Program-made: the position numbers and the translations under genes
DNA from: Vicingaceae bacterium
GTDB taxonomy: Bacteria > Bacteroidota > Bacteroidia > Flavobacteriales_E > Vicingaceae
Direction: 5' to 3'
Length of the DNA stretch: 60,493 nucleotides
Assembly: GCA_019429185.1 (NCBI GenBank)
Contig: JAHYJH010000009.1
Span: forward strand, 1-60,493
The notes under the pieces: model-generated
Database searches by the model: none
Told to the model about the DNA's origin: nothing
Seen by the model: only the letters and a program-made list of their open reading frames with translations
Shown: positions 10,731 through 44,003 of the stretch, piece by piece
Numbering within the stretch: position 1 is the stretch's first letter
Layout of the letters: each line of letters begins with the position of its first letter

Positions 10731-10932
10731 TTAGAGTCTGTCTATAATGTCCAATTTACTCATAAATATATTGTTTTTTAGATGTATTCGTGAGTTCGCT
10801 TCGCTCAGTTCATCGTTTTTCTCGATCTTCAAATCAGTCATGTACGAAAGTACACTCCTGATTTTCAGTTCATCGAAACCTCGAACTCGAACATTATAGT
10901 TCAGCCTCTTAACTAAATGGACAAACACTAAT
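10731..10932. repeat. TIR element copy 1 (TTAGAGTTTGT family), inverted orientation
   Basis: Fills the gap between the Skp-like gene and the DUF4924 gene exactly. It begins TTAGAGTCTGTCTAT, and its other end reads TTAGTGTTTGTCCAT on the opposite strand, giving imperfect terminal inverted repeats. The interior has the shared hairpin CAGGAGTGTAC...GTACATGACTG. Related copies lie at ~13112-13259 and 23353-23501. A 65-codon open frame inside it looks non-genic. Confidence 0.85.
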
Positions 10933-10933
10933 T

Positions 10934-11494
10934 ATGCTCATTGCCCAAGAAAAAGAAAAAACCAACATTGCCGAATATATTTTATATATGTGGCAAATTG
11001 AAGACTTAGTTCGCTTCAATGCGTTTGATTTAGAACAAATTTATGATACTATTATTACTAAATTTAATGTTTCTGATGAATTAAAAGCAGAAATGAAATT
11101 GTGGTATAAAAATATTATCGAGCAAATGATGAAACAAGGCATTTCTGAAAAAGGACACCTCGATTATATTAACACAAGAATAGAAGAACTTAACAACTTA
11201 CACAATTCATTGCTAACCACAATTCAAGATAAAGACTATCAAAATCAATACATTAAAACATCCGCTAACATTAAAAGTTTGATGGAAAAAGCAAACAATG
11301 AAGCCAAAAATGAAATTCATGCTTGTTTAATCGGATTGTATGGTTTTTTGGTATTGAAATTGAAAAACGAACAGATAGGAGAGGCAACTAAAGAAGCCAT
11401 TAATTCGTTTAGCGGTTTGCTAGCCATTCTTACCAACAGATATAATAAACTCCAGAAAGGAGAGCTAAAATTTAATCATGAAATTAATAATTAA
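10934..11494 (+). CDS. DUF4924 family protein
   Basis: A 186-aa cytoplasmic protein recognised as DUF4924 by its N-terminus (LIAQEKEKTNIAEYILYMWQ) and its largely helical, charged composition. It has no signal peptide or membrane segment. The family is widespread in Bacteroidota and has no known function. The ATG lies directly at the edge of the upstream repeat element, so its native promoter has probably been displaced or lies within the repeat. The gene is followed after 41 bp by the surface protein gene on the same strand. Confidence 0.85.
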   Translation: MLIAQEKEKTNIAEYILYMWQIEDLVRFNAFDLEQIYDTIITKFNVSDELKAEMKLWYKNIIEQMMKQGISEKGHLDYINTRIEELNNLHNSLLTTIQDKDYQNQYIKTSANIKSLMEKANNEAKNEIHACLIGLYGFLVLKLKNEQIGEATKEAINSFSGLLAILTNRYNKLQKGELKFNHEINN

Positions 11495-13111: not shown

Positions 13112-13259
13112 ATAAAGTTTACCTGTGAAATCTGAGTTTAGTTCAGAATGTTCGAGTTCGAGGTTTTGAAGTTTTTTAAATTCAGGAGTTTACTTGTGTA
13201 AATGACTGATTTAAAAAACGAGAATAACGAAGAAATCGAACATTATGGACAAACTCTAA
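13112..13259. repeat. TIR element copy 2 (TTAGAGTTTGT family)
   Basis: Shares the blocks GTTCGAGTTCGAGGTTT, CAGGAGTTTACTTGTGTAAA and ACATTATGGACAAACTCTAA with the copies at 10731 and 23353. The right end is well conserved; the left terminal repeat is degenerate, so the left boundary is approximate. Its final TAA lies in frame with, and immediately upstream of, the PAP2 reading frame. Confidence 0.8.
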
Positions 13260-23352: not shown

Positions 23353-23501
23353 TTAGAGTTTGTTCATAAAGTCAAGAGGCTGAACTGTAAAGTTCAAATT
23401 CAAGGCTTTCGAAGTTTTGAAAATCAGGAGTTTACTTTTGTAAATGACTGGTTTTTAAAACGAGAATAACGAAGATATCGGACATTATGGACAAACTCTA
23501 A
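23353..23501. repeat. TIR element copy 3 (TTAGAGTTTGT family)
   Basis: The best-preserved copy: TTAGAGTTTGTTCATAA at the left end is inverted at the right end as TTAGAGTTTGTCCATAA on the opposite strand. The interior carries CAGGAGTTTACTTTTGTAAA. Directly after it, at 23502-23516, another terminal repeat (TTAGAGTTTGTTCAT) provides the last codons and stop of the HigA-like gene. Confidence 0.88.
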
Positions 23502-26441: not shown

Positions 26442-28223
26442 TCAACTCGCACAACAACTTAACTTTGAAACATCTTTTCCGAATGTTATCGCTGCTAATT
26501 TTATGCCTTCTCCTAAAGTTAAATAAGGGTATAAACTCTCGGCTAGTTCCGTTACGGTAATACCAAATTTTATAGCCATGCTTAATTGTTGTATCAATTC
26601 TCCACCCTCCGGAGCGACTACTCTTGCTCCAATCAATTTGTCGGTTTCAGTGTTTCGGATTAATTTTATAAAACCCCTGGTGTCGTTAGCTGCGATAGCT
26701 CTTGGCACATTGTCCAATCCTATTTTACTTACTTCAAAAGGAATATTTTGGTTGGCAGCTTCGTTTTCGTCTAAACCAACCCCCGCAATTTGTGGGTCGG
26801 TAAAAACTACCCAAGGCAATGAGCTATAGTCTGTTTTTCTATTTGCTCCAGAAAAAGCATTTTCTATGGCAATTTTTCCTTCCAACGCAGCGGTATAAAC
26901 AAAAGGTGGCGTGTTGGCAACATCTCCTGCTGCAAAAACATTGGATAGGTTAGTTTCCATTTTTTCGTTTACCAAAATATGACCTGCTTTGGTAAGTTCT
27001 AAGCCTATATTTTCTATCCCTAATTTATTGGTGTTGGGTGTTGTTCCGGTGGCGATAACTACATATCCTTTTTCGATAAGTTGGGTGAAAGAACCATCGG
27101 GGCATTTGCAATGAATAATGGTTTCGTTTCCTTGTTTCTCAAACTTTACAGCACGAAAGTTGGGCAGAATTTCAATGCCTTCGTTTCGCATTTGTGTTTC
27201 TAATGCCTCACTGATGTCGGGTGTTTGTGTACGTAATACACGGTCGGTAAATTCGATGATACGTACTTTTACCCCCAAACGATTGTATGCCATTGCTATT
27301 TCCAAACCGATGTAACCAGCTCCCATTATGGTTAAGCTTTCCGGTTTTTCTTCTAAATCGAAAAGGGAAACATTGGTTAAATAACCAATTTTGTCTAATC
27401 CTTCAATGTTTGGAATGTTGGTGGTGGCTCCAGTAGCAATTAAAAAAGCCCCTCCTAACCTCCCCGAAGGGGAGGAATTTGCCTTCAATCGACCTTCTCC
27501 AATTAGTGAATTGGAATTCTTATCTTCAAAGATTTCAATAGTATTTTGGTCTTTGAAAGTTGCCCAACCTTTTAGCATCGTGAGGTTTTTAAAATCGCTT
27601 ACCACATCCATATACTTTTTTTCTTGAAGTATAGCCACTAATTTTTTCTTGTCTTTGATGATTTGAGCAAAATCAATGTCAACACCTTTAGGCTTGATGC
27701 CTGTAAAATTGGAATGTGTGGCGTGATAAGCAGTTTCGCCTGCACGTATCAGGTTTTTAGAAGGCACACAACCTACATTAACACAAGTTCCACCAAAATC
27801 TAAACCACCGTTTACCATTAAGGTGGTTAATCCCAAACTTTCGGCTTTTATGGCTGCAGAAAAAGCTGCCGATCCTCCACCGATAATGATTAAATCATAA
27901 TCATTTTTCCCTTTTCCTTCTGATTGAACAGGTGCTTCGTTGGTCGTTTTTGTAGCACAACAATCGGCTTCTTTTACTTTGTAATTTCCAACATTATTTA
28001 CTGCTTCAATAATTGCTGGTTCGGTTAATTTGTTTTTATCAAAGGTAAATTCTCCTTTACCTGTTTCATGATTAACAGAACAACTAATTATTCCTTTTTT
28101 AGTTTTTAATTCTTTTTCGATGTGAGAGGAGCAACCACTACAAGTCATTCCTTCAATTTCTAATGTAATGGTTTTTGTTTGCTGAGGTTGTTCCTCACTT
28201 TTTCCAAAGATATTTTTTAGCAT
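26442..28223 (-). CDS. merA: Mercuric reductase with N-terminal HMA domain
   Basis: Flavoprotein that reduces Hg(II) to volatile Hg(0) using NADPH in the cytoplasm. A metal-binding HMA domain (~18-88) has GMTCSGC (25-31). The FAD domain follows with the active-site pair GTCVNVGC (C147/C152), then the NADPH fold GAGYIGLE (301-308). The C-terminus ends in the vicinal Cys pair C590-C591, diagnostic of true MerA. An unusual Ser/Gly-rich insert (~236-259) just before AFLIATGATTN is encoded by a dispersed palindromic repeat, yet keeps the frame. It sits 12 bp after the MerP-like gene. Confidence 0.95.
   Translation of the reverse strand: MLKNIFGKSEEQPQQTKTITLEIEGMTCSGCSSHIEKELKTKKGIISCSVNHETGKGEFTFDKNKLTEPAIIEAVNNVGNYKVKEADCCATKTTNEAPVQSEGKGKNDYDLIIIGGGSAAFSAAIKAESLGLTTLMVNGGLDFGGTCVNVGCVPSKNLIRAGETAYHATHSNFTGIKPKGVDIDFAQIIKDKKKLVAILQEKKYMDVVSDFKNLTMLKGWATFKDQNTIEIFEDKNSNSLIGEGRLKANSSPSGRLGGAFLIATGATTNIPNIEGLDKIGYLTNVSLFDLEEKPESLTIMGAGYIGLEIAMAYNRLGVKVRIIEFTDRVLRTQTPDISEALETQMRNEGIEILPNFRAVKFEKQGNETIIHCKCPDGSFTQLIEKGYVVIATGTTPNTNKLGIENIGLELTKAGHILVNEKMETNLSNVFAAGDVANTPPFVYTAALEGKIAIENAFSGANRKTDYSSLPWVVFTDPQIAGVGLDENEAANQNIPFEVSKIGLDNVPRAIAANDTRGFIKLIRNTETDKLIGARVVAPEGGELIQQLSMAIKFGITVTELAESLYPYLTLGEGIKLAAITFGKDVSKLSCCAS
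27451..27525. repeat. REP-like palindromic element inside merA
   Basis: The palindrome CCTCCCC-GAA-GGGGAGG (27459-27475) is flanked by CTCCTAA and, further on, by AATTCACTAATTGG-type sequence. It belongs to the same GGAGG/CCTCC family as the element at the end of arsS (42932-42948). It encodes about 24 residues in frame within merA. Outer limits are estimated from where MerA-like sequence resumes. Confidence 0.7.
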
Positions 28224-32815: not shown

Positions 32816-32833
32816 AAGGGGTCATGACCCCTT
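32816..32833. repeat. Palindrome AAGGGGTCATGACCCCTT
   Basis: A perfect 18-bp palindrome. Its TCATGA core contains the TGA stop of the adaptor gene on the minus strand. A degenerate hairpin ACAAGA...TCTTGT lies just beyond at 32782-32802. Confidence 0.85.
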
Positions 32834-33913
32834 GTTAAAAACAGGTTCAACAATTTGTCCGTCATTTACCAAGCCTTTTCCTTGCACAATTACTTGTGTG
32901 TTTTCGGTAATTTCTGCATTGAGTATCTCAAAATAATCTTTATCAGAAAGCCCAATTTTTATAGGCAATCTTTTTACTATTTTATTTTCTACCACCAACA
33001 CAAAATCTTCATTTTTAAAACTCATTTTTGAAATGATAGGCAAGGATAAAATATTTTGACGACTGTTTATTTTCATCATTACTTTGGCGTACATTCCCGT
33101 TAAAATAGTTGCGTCTTCGTTGGCTATATCAATTTCTACTTGCATGGTTTTCGATTGTGGGTCTAATGCGTTAGAAGTCCGACTAATTTTTGCAGCGTAT
33201 GTTTTTCCCGATAATTCAGGAAAAGTAACTTGTACTTCCATGCCTTGTTTCAACGCAACGGCATCGGTTTCTGGAACAGGAATAGTCAAACGAATGTGGT
33301 TGGTTTCCTGAATTTCAACAACAGGTTGCGGATTTTTTTGGTTCAAACCACTTTGTAAAAGACTTCCGTTATCCACAAAACGCTTGGTAATCATTCCCAA
33401 AAAGGGAGCTTTTACATTTAAAAATGATAGTCTGCTGTTTACCGCATCTAAATTGGCTTTTGCCGAAAGGTATTCTGCTTCGGCATTTTCTACTTGTTGT
33501 ATATTGGTTAAGGCCGGTGTTTTTTCGTAAACGGATTTTAACCGATTATAAACCGATTCTTTGGCTTGCAACTCTGCTTTCAGTTTGATTTGCTGCTGAA
33601 CCAATTCAGGATTTTCCAATACAGCTATAGTTTCACCTTTTTGAACTTTGTCGCCAATTTCTTTTTTAATTTGACTCAACACACCGCTTTCCATCGCATA
33701 AATGGTAACCATTTGATTGGGTTGGGCTGTTCCGGTTATTAATATTTCTGCGGTAAACGACCGTTGTTTTGGTGTTACCACTTCTACCTTTTGTATTTTA
33801 TCTGAAGTGGCAGAGGAACTGTTTTCTTCTTTTTCTGAAGGATTACAAGCAGAAAAGAAACTAAGTAGTACAGTACCAACTACCAGTAATTTTATATGGA
33901 TTCTATTTTTCAT
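32822..33913 (-). CDS. RND efflux periplasmic adaptor (second pump)
   Basis: A 363-aa lipoprotein (lipobox FFSACNP, Cys at ~22). It has the adaptor layout: lipoyl half GVLSQIKKEIGDKVQKGE, a helical hairpin (~110-160), the second lipoyl half FLNVKAPFLGMITKRFVD, and beta-barrel and membrane-proximal domains. It couples the permease encoded upstream to the TolC protein encoded downstream. The last residues (FNKGS) and stop are encoded by the palindromic repeat at 32816-32833, as also happens in the permease gene. Its substrate is unknown, but it lies between mercury and arsenic genes. Confidence 0.94.
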   Translation of the reverse strand: MKNRIHIKLLVVGTVLLSFFSACNPSEKEENSSSATSDKIQKVEVVTPKQRSFTAEILITGTAQPNQMVTIYAMESGVLSQIKKEIGDKVQKGETIAVLENPELVQQQIKLKAELQAKESVYNRLKSVYEKTPALTNIQQVENAEAEYLSAKANLDAVNSRLSFLNVKAPFLGMITKRFVDNGSLLQSGLNQKNPQPVVEIQETNHIRLTIPVPETDAVALKQGMEVQVTFPELSGKTYAAKISRTSNALDPQSKTMQVEIDIANEDATILTGMYAKVMMKINSRQNILSLPIISKMSFKNEDFVLVVENKIVKRLPIKIGLSDKDYFEILNAEITENTQVIVQGKGLVNDGQIVEPVFNKGS

Positions 33914-33930
33914 AATTTTTATTTTTTTGA

Positions 33931-34005
33931 CAAGGGGTCATGACCCCTTGTTGTTTTTTTGCATGGGGATTAATCCCCTTGTTAAAAGAGTCATGACCCC
34001 TTGTT
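33931..34005. repeat. Cluster of three AAGGGG/CCCCTT palindromes
   Basis: CAAGGGGTCATGACCCCTTG (33931-33950), GGGGATTAATCCCC (33965-33978) and a half-copy TCATGACCCCTTGTT (33991-34005) follow each other between permease and adaptor genes. The half-copy provides the permease's last codons and stop. Confidence 0.85.
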
Positions 34006-37000
34006 GGTTGTTTTTGCGATGAGTGAATAAAATATTGGGATAATGTAAAGCGTAATAAACATTGCCATAAACGTTCCGCCAATAACTACAATGGCTAATG
34101 GTACGTTGGCTTCCGAACCTGGATTGGTTGCTATTGCTGTTGGCAGCAAACCTAAAATGGTGGTAGAAGCTGTCATTAAAACAGGTCGGAAACGGTCAGC
34201 AGCACCTTCAATAATGGCATCTTTTTTCGATTTTCCTGCTGTGATTAAGGCATTGATTCTGTCCACCAAAATATTACCGTAAGAAACCGAAATTCCAACC
34301 ATCATAATAATTCCCATAATGGCTTGAATACTCATATACGTATCGGTAGCCATCATTAAAAAAGCAACCCCAATAATCCCGAAAGGAAAGGTTAAAATGA
34401 TAATAAGCGGTTTTCTGAACGACCTAAAAAGAGGTGTAATGATTAAAAAAGCTAACATTACTGCCAATGCTAATCCCAGTCCTAAACCTCCAAACGATTC
34501 TTTAATAATGGCAACTTCGCCCTGAAAATTAACTTCATAACCGGCAGGAAGTTCCATGTTGTCGATGATTTCCTGAATTTCATCAGAAACACTTCCGATA
34601 TCCTCGCCTTCCACATTTGCATACACATTAAATTCTCTGGTCAATTTATGGTGATTGATTTCCACAGGATTTGAACCGTCTGTTATTTTGGCAAAATTTC
34701 GGAAAGGAATGGTTTTTTCCTGCAAACTGCTTCCAACACCTACGTTGTCTAAAACAAATTGATTGTTGATTTGACTTTCGGGATAAGTTACCCCAACGTA
34801 ATAGTGATTTCCATTGCGTTCGTCAATCCAAAAAGCTTTGTTAAAAGTTACCGATGAATTTAAGGTAGAAACCATATTTTTAATAGCATCAACTGGCTCA
34901 ACGCCTAATTCTGCTGCTTTAATTCTATCAATATCAATGTTTTTGGCAGGTTGGTCGATTCGCTGCAACACCCGTACATCTCGGGTAGCCGAAAGTGTGG
35001 CAACCGTATCTCTAATTTGTTCAGCCAAACCTCTCAGCACTTTCAAATCGTTACCTTTAATTTGAACATCGATTGGAGCAGGTTTTCCTTCGTTCAATGC
35101 AGCGGTAATCATTCCACCGGTGTTAAAACTTACTTCAACTCCCGGAAATTTTTCGTGAAAGATTTTTCGTAATCGAGAGGCGTAATCAAACGTGCTGGTT
35201 TGGTGCGTTTCTTTTAGCTGCACACCAATAAAAGCATCTTGCGTTCCCGAATTTGGCGTATAAGCAGCAGGTAAATCATAAAACACTCCAATATTTCCAA
35301 TCACTTGTTCTAAATCATTACCAGTTTCTTTTCTGATAACTTGCTCCATTTCGGCAACAGTAGCATTGGTTTTTTGCAGAGTGCTTCCCGATTCCAACCG
35401 TACCATAATTTCCATTTGTCCCACATCCGATTGCGGAAATAATTCATAGCCTGTATTTTTCAATAGAAACAATGAAATCACAAAAAGAACTAAGGTAAAT
35501 CCTAAAATGGGGATTCTAAATTTTAATACATTCGTTAGGCTATTTTGATATTTCACACCCAATCCATCAATAATTCGTTGAAACTTTCCTAAAAAGTTTT
35601 TCTTGGGTTTTTCTTCCGATTTTGGCAATTGATTTCTAAAGAAAAAAGCTGCCATTAACGGAATAAGCGTTAAAGCAAAAATGTAAGAACCTACCATTGC
35701 TCCGGCTACTGTTATCGCTAAAGGCGAGAAAAGAAATTTGGTTATTCCTGTTAGAAACAACACGGGGAAAAACACCACAATAATTACTAAAGTAGAAGCC
35801 AATACGGGATTTGCAACTTCTAAGGCTGCATCCATAGCGGCAACAAAAGAATTTTTACCCATTTTTAAATGCTTGTCGATATTTTCCAATACCACAATGG
35901 AATTATCTACCAAAAGCCCTAATACCAAAGCCAATCCACCTAATGTAATACTGTTGATGGCTTGTCCAGAAACGGAAAGTACAATAAAGGCAAACAATAC
36001 CGAAAGTGGTAAACTTATCGCTACAATCAATGCCGATTTAAAGTTTCCTAAAAACAAAATCAAGATGATAACCACTAAGATAAGTCCACCAAAACCGGCT
36101 TTTTCAAGTCCAGCTATGGAGTTTTTTACATACGATGACTGATCGAAAATTACATTCAATTTCACATCATCGGGCATTCGTTCTTTTAATCCCGGCAAGG
36201 CTTTTTTTACCGCTTCAACTGCTGCAATGGTATTTGCTCCTGGTCGTTTAAAAATAGGCAGGTAAACTTGTTCTTTGCCGTCAACTCGGGCAATGTTGGT
36301 TTGGATGGCACTGGCATCTTTGGTTTGTCCAATGTCTTTAATAAAAATAGGTTTGCCGTTTTTATGGGTAATTACAATATCGTCAAAATCTTTTACATCA
36401 ATAATCAACCCTTTGGCATCTACACCATAACTTATTGTTCCAATTTCGGCAATACCCGAAGGAATCATAGTGGTATTTTTTTGAATAGCATCAGAAACTT
36501 CGGTTTGAGAAATGCCCAACGCTTCCATTTTTAGTGGATCAACATAAACATAAATCATACGCAATGAGCCACCATAAGCCGCAGGAGCAACAATGCCTTC
36601 CACACCGCTCAACATCTGACGTAAGTTTAAGTATGCCACATCGTATAATTCTTTTCCACTTTTTATATCGCTACTCACCGTAAGTAACATTAATGGTTTG
36701 GAAGCTGTTGGGTCGAATGGCTGTATCATCGGGGGCATAGTACCGGGTGGCTGATAATACATATCGCTTACCGCATACGATGAAGTGTTTGCCATAGCTT
36801 CGGCAGGGTCAATATCTTCACCGTAAAAATTGGTAACAATACTCACGCCCATAATGCTTTTAGAAAGTTGTTTTTCTATTCCAGGCGATTGACCTGTCCA
36901 CCGTTCCATACGGCTGGTAATGTCTTTTTCTACAACTTCAGCAGGCATTCCGGGATAAAGCGTAATAACCTGCATGGCTGATTTTTTAAATTGTGGAAGA

Positions 37001-42923: not shown

Positions 42924-44003
42924 CTACGTAGCCCCTCCTTCGGAGGGGTTGGGGAGGCTTCCTTGACAACTACTTCCTGCTCCAGCAGTGCAACCATAAC
43001 AATGTTGCGAAGTAATAATTGCTCTGTTTTGCAGCACTTTTTCGTTGTATGCTGAAATGTGTTGCACTTTGCTTGCCACTTTTAAATCTAACATTTGGTT
43101 AAAATCGCAATCGTATAAATAACCATCCCAACTTACCGAAATAGTGTTTTTGCACATTACATTAGCAACAGCAGCAGGGTTAAAAGCTTCTACCAACGCA
43201 TACATATAGTCTTCGTAATTATCGGAAGCAATTAAGTATTCCAAAAATCGGCTTATGGGTAAATTGGTAATGACAAATAGGTTGTTAAACTCAATGTTAA
43301 AATCTCGTTTTAAGGCTTTTTTAAAATCGTTTTCCAATGCTTTTTGGTCGGCAGGAAGAAAAGCCCCTGTTGGGTTATACACTAAATCGAGTTGTAAACC
43401 GCTACCTTCTTTTCCATAACCCACAGCATTAAGTTCTTCCAACGCTTTAATGGATAGTTTAAAAACACCACTACCTCTTTGCCTGTCGGTCATATCTTGC
43501 GTATAATGCGGCATGGAAGAAACTACATGAATGTTGTGTTTTTTGAAAAACTCGGGTAAATCGTAATACTTTGGGTTGGAGCGTAAAATGGTTAAATTGC
43601 TACGAACAATAAAATCGTTGACACCAATTTTGGAAGCTTCTTCAACAAACCATCTAAAGTTTGGGTTCATTTCGGGTGCTCCACCAGTTAAATCAAGCGT
43701 ATGAGCTTTGGTGTTTTTTATCACATCTAAACATTGCAGCATGGTTTCACGCGTCATAATTTCTTTACGATCGGGACCAGCATCTACGTGGCAATGTGCA
43801 CAAACCTGATTGCACATATAACCAACATTGATTTGCAGAATTTCTATGGAGTTAGGGTTTAGTGGAAATTGTTGGCTTACTTTCAATTTTTCGGTAAACG
43901 AGGGTAATTTTCCATCGGCAAAAATGCCATTGGAAAGAAACCGCAATTGTTCTTTGGGTTCGGAAAGTTTGTTTTTTCTTGCAAGTAAGGATTTTGTAGC
44001 CAT
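42924..44003 (-). CDS. arsS: Arsenosugar biosynthesis radical SAM protein ArsS
   Basis: A 359-aa radical SAM enzyme. The [4Fe-4S] cluster motif is CNQVCAHC (C64, C68, C71). A later Cys-rich region includes MCKNTISVSWDGYLYDCDF and CYGCTAGAGSSC. ArsS-type enzymes adenosylate (dimethyl)arsenite with the 5'-deoxyadenosyl group of SAM, giving the arsenosugar backbone. The start at 44003 lies three bases after the AhpD-like gene. The last ten residues and stop (from about NPSEGG onward) are encoded by a CCTCC/GGAGG palindrome at 42932-42948, a repeat-derived tail. Confidence 0.94.
   Translation of the reverse strand: MATKSLLARKNKLSEPKEQLRFLSNGIFADGKLPSFTEKLKVSQQFPLNPNSIEILQINVGYMCNQVCAHCHVDAGPDRKEIMTRETMLQCLDVIKNTKAHTLDLTGGAPEMNPNFRWFVEEASKIGVNDFIVRSNLTILRSNPKYYDLPEFFKKHNIHVVSSMPHYTQDMTDRQRGSGVFKLSIKALEELNAVGYGKEGSGLQLDLVYNPTGAFLPADQKALENDFKKALKRDFNIEFNNLFVITNLPISRFLEYLIASDNYEDYMYALVEAFNPAAVANVMCKNTISVSWDGYLYDCDFNQMLDLKVASKVQHISAYNEKVLQNRAIITSQHCYGCTAGAGSSCQGSLPNPSEGGAT
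42932..42948. repeat. Palindrome CCCCTCC-TTC-GGAGGGG at the arsS end
   Basis: A 7-bp stem followed by GTTGGGGAGGC. It is the same family as the element within merA (27459-27475) and covers the final arsS codons. Confidence 0.8.

Follow-up and report, generated by a model that had tools for sequence, protein, structure and literature searches.

A 54-nt in-frame insert in merA of a Vicingaceae bacterium belongs to a three-armed repeat family associated with the DUF559 nuclease domain in Bacteroidota

Mobile elements within coding genes normally need splicing. Short palindromes are tolerated in proteins as well: the Rickettsia palindromic elements (RPEs) and the GTAG/CGTC REPs found inside genes lie in-frame in working proteins and lengthen them (PMC3733652). 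Another class of dispersed repeats, the PIT/TMECO elements, is known as intrastrand triplex motifs (Hoyne, Maher; Holder et al. 2015, PMC4666352). The best-studied one, TMECO of E. coli, is a single conserved 37-nt sequence, always intergenic in this species and not linked to a mobility gene; its pattern is CCCTCNCCCN3-6GGGNGAGGGN3GGGNGAGGG with 9-nt arms, and it showed no triplex, whether as duplex DNA or in living cells (PMC4666352). Homing endonucleases of the EDxHD type such as I-Bth0305I are encoded in introns, inteins or free-standing genes (PMC3943268, PMC9403480). The closest known case of a nuclease inserted without splicing is ShiLan of phage methylases, an inserted endonuclease with no detectable splicing and an open host frame (PMC11855218); it is a phage element whose HNH nuclease is read out of frame, terminal repeats have not been described for it and small derivatives are lacking. 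Here, we describe a dispersed repeat with features of several of these systems, starting from a copy in the mercury(II) reductase gene (merA) of a Vicingaceae bacterium. The window, i.e. the whole stretch of DNA analysed, comprises 60,493 nucleotides and has the following features.

26442..28223, minus strand: merA, mercury(II) reductase with an N-terminal HMA domain, 593 aa; host of the insert
27447..27500, minus strand: in-frame element of 54 nt = 18 codons, GEGRLKANSSPSGRLGGA; a gap in MerA relatives
27476..27500, minus strand: 5' flank of the merA element, 25 nt, within the 54-nt gap
27469..27475, minus strand: pyrimidine arm (Y) of the merA element, CCTCCCC
27466-27468, minus strand: loop TTC between the Y and R arms
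27459..27465, minus strand: purine arm (R), GGGGAGG, the reverse complement of Y
27456-27458, minus strand: linker TTA between the R and T arms
27449..27455, minus strand: third arm (T), GGAGGGG, the mirror image of R, followed by CT
42932..42957, plus strand: second copy in the window, of type I, lying antisense to arsS at its 3' end

The merA ORF matched the MerA model TIGR02053 with 493 bits (cut-off 454), and the active-site motif GGTCVNVGC as well as the C-terminal CC are intact. The original prediction had placed a palindrome, CCTCCCC-GAA-GGGGAGG, in frame in merA; it is indeed present (27459-27475, plus strand) and the repeat is translated into SSPSGRLGGA directly ahead of FLIATGATTN. 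The interval given for it, 27451-27525, holds for the repeat part but not for its upper 25 nt (27501-27525), which align as host DNA, and a second tandem copy in the upstream half of the interval was rejected. The third arm, GGAGGGG (27449-27455, minus strand), had been missed in that description. As expected from the claim that MerA is shorter in other bacteria, alignment with the four nearest homologues (82, 70, 69 and 63% identical) revealed that all of them lack the 18 residues. In protein alignments, GEGRLKANSSPSGRLGGA is missing from MerA of four relatives (G005, G010, G018 and G030); in a DNA alignment with merA of the first three the gap amounts to exactly 54 nt relative to G005, and with the solved MerA 5x1y as comparison the segment was again an insertion. 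The alignments make a location of the insert in a surface loop plausible; structure prediction of MerA from the single sequence gave a pLDDT of 36, too low to be used.

The original prediction also called for further copies in the genome, and searches found many. By BLAST, the sequence of 27445-27480 (36 nt) recurs without a mismatch at C191:25431-25466 and many times at 88-97% identity; because of these copies, a chance origin of the merA palindrome is excluded. With a covariance model made from 20 copies, the same genome yielded 91 matches at a threshold of E<=1e-3 and 134 when this was relaxed to E<=1; the merA copy scored E=4.6e-18 within the window, and 21 of 60 searched genomes had copies, in a patchy distribution. 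Two types of repeat can be told apart by their flanks (G000, for example L144, L148 and L166), a GGCTTTGTGCGTTGGAAAC-type located sense before start codons and a CTCTACGTAG-type located antisense 3-4 nt past stop codons. The extragenic copies mostly lie no more than ~40 nt ahead of start codons (sense) or 3-4 nt past stops (antisense), so that, as a rule, the repeat has its 3' end towards the coding sequence. The copy at the end of arsS, proposed before to be of the same family, is real (42932-42957, plus strand): within 42924-42961, the last residues of ArsS (ORF 42924-44003, minus strand), SLPNPSEGGAT, are encoded by the antisense type I repeat, and the stop codon is supplied by the repeat flank. 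Compared with the flank matrix of type II, the 5' flank of the merA element gave a weak match (p=0.04); it may be what erosion has left of TGGCTTTGTGCGTTGGAAACT, the flank of type II. The window holds other repeats as well. A different dispersed palindrome, ACAAGGGGTCATGACCCCTTGT, is found between genes at 32816-32841, 33924-33960 and 33985-34013 and, elsewhere in the genome, at L166 and L147. A 113-nt repeat is present at 13147-13259 and 23389-23501 with 85% identity and has an inverted relative at 10810-10934; a larger mobile element may have left these behind.

Next to the hairpin, the repeat has a third arm which mirrors the purine arm, and we use the name PIT, after 'potential intrastrand triplex', for this order of Y arm, R arm and mirror-image third arm; PITs were called with a purpose-written scanner. 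The arms of the merA copy are CCTCCCC / GGGGAGG / GGAGGGG, those of other copies include CCCCTCC / GGAGGGG / GGGGAGG, CTCCCCC / GGGGGAG / GAGGGGG, CCCCTCT / AGAGGGG / GGGGTGT and CCTTCCC / GGGAAGG / GGATGGG, and more sets exist. In the mirror test, hairpins were picked blind to the third arm and an A was allowed to be matched by A or T. Within the same genome, 68 of 72 hairpins had a perfect mirror third arm, asymmetric arms fitted a mirror in 59 of 62 cases versus 5 of 62 for a direct repeat, 14 arm sequences followed the rule, and the observed fit was never reached in 20,000 permutations that re-paired arms and third arms across types. At the 80 DUF559 loci of named genomes (see below), which have 31 distinct arms, asymmetric arms gave 75/89 mirror versus 11/89 direct, with a mean mirror fit of 0.90, whereas permutations reached 0.76 at most. 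All three arms covary: an A is faced by A or T, and a G almost without exception by G. Such covarying mirror arms fit a purine-motif intrastrand triplex with reverse-Hoogsteen pairing (G on G-C; A or T on A-T), and judged from sequence the PIT may form one. Seen with the ITxF criteria (stem 6-15 nt, loops 1-6 nt), the merA copy has 7-nt arms, the loops TTC and TTA and a perfect mirror. The folding energy of the hairpin was not unusual when compared to shuffled sequences and, therefore, stem stability was left out as evidence. That duplex TMECO forms no triplex in vitro (PMC4666352) speaks for another origin of the mirror, namely a constraint by protein or RNA binding or a copying mechanism. 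This would replace only the triplex part of our interpretation. Since the three arms change together according to the reverse-Hoogsteen purine-motif code, it is unlikely, although it deserves to be taken seriously.

With TMECO, the family shares the order of C-rich arm, loop, G-rich arm, loop and second G-rich arm on one strand as well as the dispersed and patchy distribution among close relatives. Unlike TMECO, its arms vary and covary, it has copies in-frame in proteins and it is linked to a nuclease; the merA copy, with its 7-nt arms and another sequence, lies outside the TMECO pattern. The original term 'REP-like' needs correction: the repeat is no classical GTAG/RAYT REP, because the merA copy has no such tag and no Y1 gene is near the copies. 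Mobilisation as a REP/REPIN by a RAYT (Y1) transposase would account for short palindromes, for the frequent pairs and for the placement at gene ends; in addition, the genome has six Y1_Tnp matches, and GTAG stands directly 5' of the hairpin in some type I copies (~8 of 20, the arsS copy included). However, not a single PIT was found within 1.5 kb on either side of the six Y1_Tnp genes, type II copies, that of merA among them, lack GTAG or CGTC, and a mirror third arm is not a defining feature of REPs. With no PIT at the Y1_Tnp loci, a RAYT origin was rejected as very improbable. Integron attC sites had been considered for closely spaced copies and were dropped since the genes concerned are core genes.

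Lengthening of proteins by the repeat, as originally suggested for merA, was found to be wider than proposed, with ~18 further sense copies in-frame in other ORFs. Among 92 copies inspected, 22 lie within long ORFs and 19 of these on the coding strand. The hosts, identified by solved structures or Pfam, include IleRS, LeuRS, MetH, HutU, SufS, NuoF and an ABC transporter, and the PIT-encoded peptides are Ser/Pro/Gly-rich linkers. In-frame insertion, the trait known from RPEs, was seen for merA, SufS and IleRS, and for LeuRS and HutU against solved structures. Empty sites were found in close relatives by DNA alignment: in sufS, 57 nt are missing from three species of the same genus (G002-G004), whereas their sister G001 retains the repeat in decayed form, and in the IleRS gene 39 nt are missing in a same-genus comparison. 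The Rickettsia elements and in-gene REPs differ in that they come from a different phylum, that a third triplex arm has not been described for them and that they have no nuclease domain within the host protein.

Such a nuclease domain, DUF559, is associated with the PITs. In the relatives, PITs were present no farther than 150 bp away at 24 of 36 DUF559 loci, at 11 of them on both sides, and 12 loci have none detectable, whereas the count for control genes was 0 of 34 (p=4e-10); over the 60 genomes the counts of PITs and DUF559 correlate (Spearman 0.45, p=3e-4). A scan of named genomes with a narrow DUF559 alignment yielded 80 loci, nearly all from Bacteroidota. DUF559 is embedded in the reading frame of a host at 68 of them, an open frame having been a selection criterion for part of this in-frame set, and 60 of the 68 embedded domains are flanked by a PIT, 47 on both sides. 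The orientation is strict: left PITs are inverted (53:2), right PITs direct (56:0), and 109 of 111 point outward. Hosts include RecG, LeuRS, IleRS, ValRS, PurL, a UvrD-type helicase, MetH, UDP-GlcNAc 2-epimerase, guanylate kinase, TsaB and HsdR. In RecG, comparison with the T. maritima protein (1gm5) places an insertion of ~146 aa after motif II and ahead of the TATPIPR motif; structure prediction of RecG-DUF559 gave a mean pLDDT of 60 and a pTM of 0.31, too low to build on. The genome of the window is a 232-contig assembly, 96% complete, and this draft state is a limit, yet cultured named species share the same arrangement, with Polaribacter vadi and Tenacibaculum gallaicum among those that carry it in RecG. 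Single loci stood out in this survey. One IleRS gene of an uncultured Bacteroidales (L274) has two DUF559 domains. DUF559 insertions of the Bacteroidota type were encountered under labels of other phyla in a Limnohabitans MAG (L271) and a Saccharibacteria MAG (L301), which are either misbinned contigs or the outcome of horizontal transfer. In the genome of the window, L205 (G000:C96) is a DUF559 match in a 1321-aa frame resembling a restriction-modification protein, with no flanking repeats. In the open-access literature, to which our search was confined, no link between DUF559 and such repeats was found; an earlier description in a subscription journal is possible.

The genome of the window has a complete element in metH. 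There, an in-frame insert of ~137 aa between the cap and the B12-binding domains has the order inverted PIT, DUF559 (PF04480, 7.5e-37), PIT. This nuclease insert is missing from five of five species of the same genus, with flanks 86-96% identical. In a species of another genus (G027), the same site of metH is occupied by a short form, consisting of an inverted PIT, 15 residues and a PIT, whose inner peptide YNSYEMAE resembles the FDSYRTAD linker of the nuclease form. The short form looks like what an internal deletion would leave. The right-hand flank of the metH element is unlike that of type II solo copies, and solo repeats may thus have arisen from nuclease elements by an indirect path. Alternatively, the PIT could be a selfish palindrome of the RPE kind which is moved by other machinery, with DUF559 as cargo or drawn to the repeats instead of being the mobiliser. 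The in-frame RPEs and REPs (PMC3733652) are a precedent for this, many PITs of the genome are far from any DUF559 and six relatives without a DUF559 match still hold PITs. It is less easily reconciled with the strictly outward orientation of the paired PITs, the association with DUF559 loci but not with control genes, the correlation of counts over 60 genomes and the short derivative at a nuclease-occupied site, and we regard it as rather improbable. We favour a mobile PIT/DUF559 unit, to which the same observations point.

The profile of the embedded DUF559 domains matched 3hrl, an endonuclease-like protein, with E=7.5e-29 and 3r3p with E=1.1e-6. The latter was deposited as mobile intron protein, and we take it to be I-Bth0305I. 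The active-site residues E, D, E.D, H and D are kept in 79-80 of 80 sequences. One paper also places DUF559 in the EDxHD homing family (PMC9403480). Together, profile and paper argue for an EDxHD/Vsr-like nuclease domain akin to the homing endonuclease I-Bth0305I, which may cut the empty allele and drive its own copying. In a tree, in which the short domain leaves many forks weak, DUF559 formed one RecG clade and several LeuRS and IleRS lineages; most RecG copies look inherited from one insertion and not freshly mobile. Host switching is indicated by a PurL copy inside the ValRS clade and by a TsaB copy that is sister to a LeuRS copy of one genome.

Whereas the known EDxHD homing endonucleases are in introns, inteins or free-standing genes, DUF559 is fused in-frame into host enzymes between triplex repeats, and no splicing element was found: a search of seven loci with Rfam at the gathering threshold gave no group I or group II intron, and Pfam scans of 35 insert-bearing ORFs gave no HINT or intein domain. 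An insert in the catalytic domain of an essential enzyme would be easier to tolerate if it were removed after transcription or skipped in translation, by a cryptic intron, an intein or bypassing as in yeast mitochondria, in which case the protein would not be lengthened. In addition to the negative intron and intein searches, the host frame stays open through the inserts (an open frame having been required when part of the set was chosen) and the PIT peptides are Ser/Pro/Gly-rich linkers, which makes removal highly improbable, the least probable of the explanations considered. The insert thus presumably stays unspliced in the host protein.

In sum, the merA insert is probably a non-autonomous copy of a Bacteroidota PIT family whose full form carries DUF559 and spreads by a homing-type mechanism. 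The full-length form would be host, inverted PIT, DUF559 nuclease, PIT and host again, in-frame within housekeeping genes. The nuclease, translated as a segment of its host protein or from a start of its own, would cut the empty allele or a new site, and repair of the break would copy the PIT-bounded unit into the site. The G-rich PITs would mark the ends of the unit and at the same time encode the short linkers; this, we propose, keeps the host enzymes working although the insert is not removed. PITs in pairs or alone, among them the 54-nt insert in merA, would then be what an internal deletion leaves behind. For merA itself, this path is deduced indirectly because the flank match is weak and the 54-nt insert has no nuclease remnant.

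With somewhat less confidence, at just under an even chance in our estimate, PIT and DUF559 may constitute a new class of mobile elements, with a homing-type nuclease, triplex-forming ends and an in-frame, unspliced location in essential genes, that spawns 54-nt derivatives seeding new protein segments. The covarying third arm offers evolutionary evidence for a triplex constraint, which the single conserved motif of E. coli could not supply, and DUF559, in Pfam a domain of 'unknown function', gains a testable role. A nuclease domain in the middle of RecG, LeuRS, IleRS and ValRS of named cultured species, apparently unspliced, raises the question of how it is tolerated, which can be tested. Short derivatives like the merA insert point to a way in which selfish DNA can make proteins longer and more varied.
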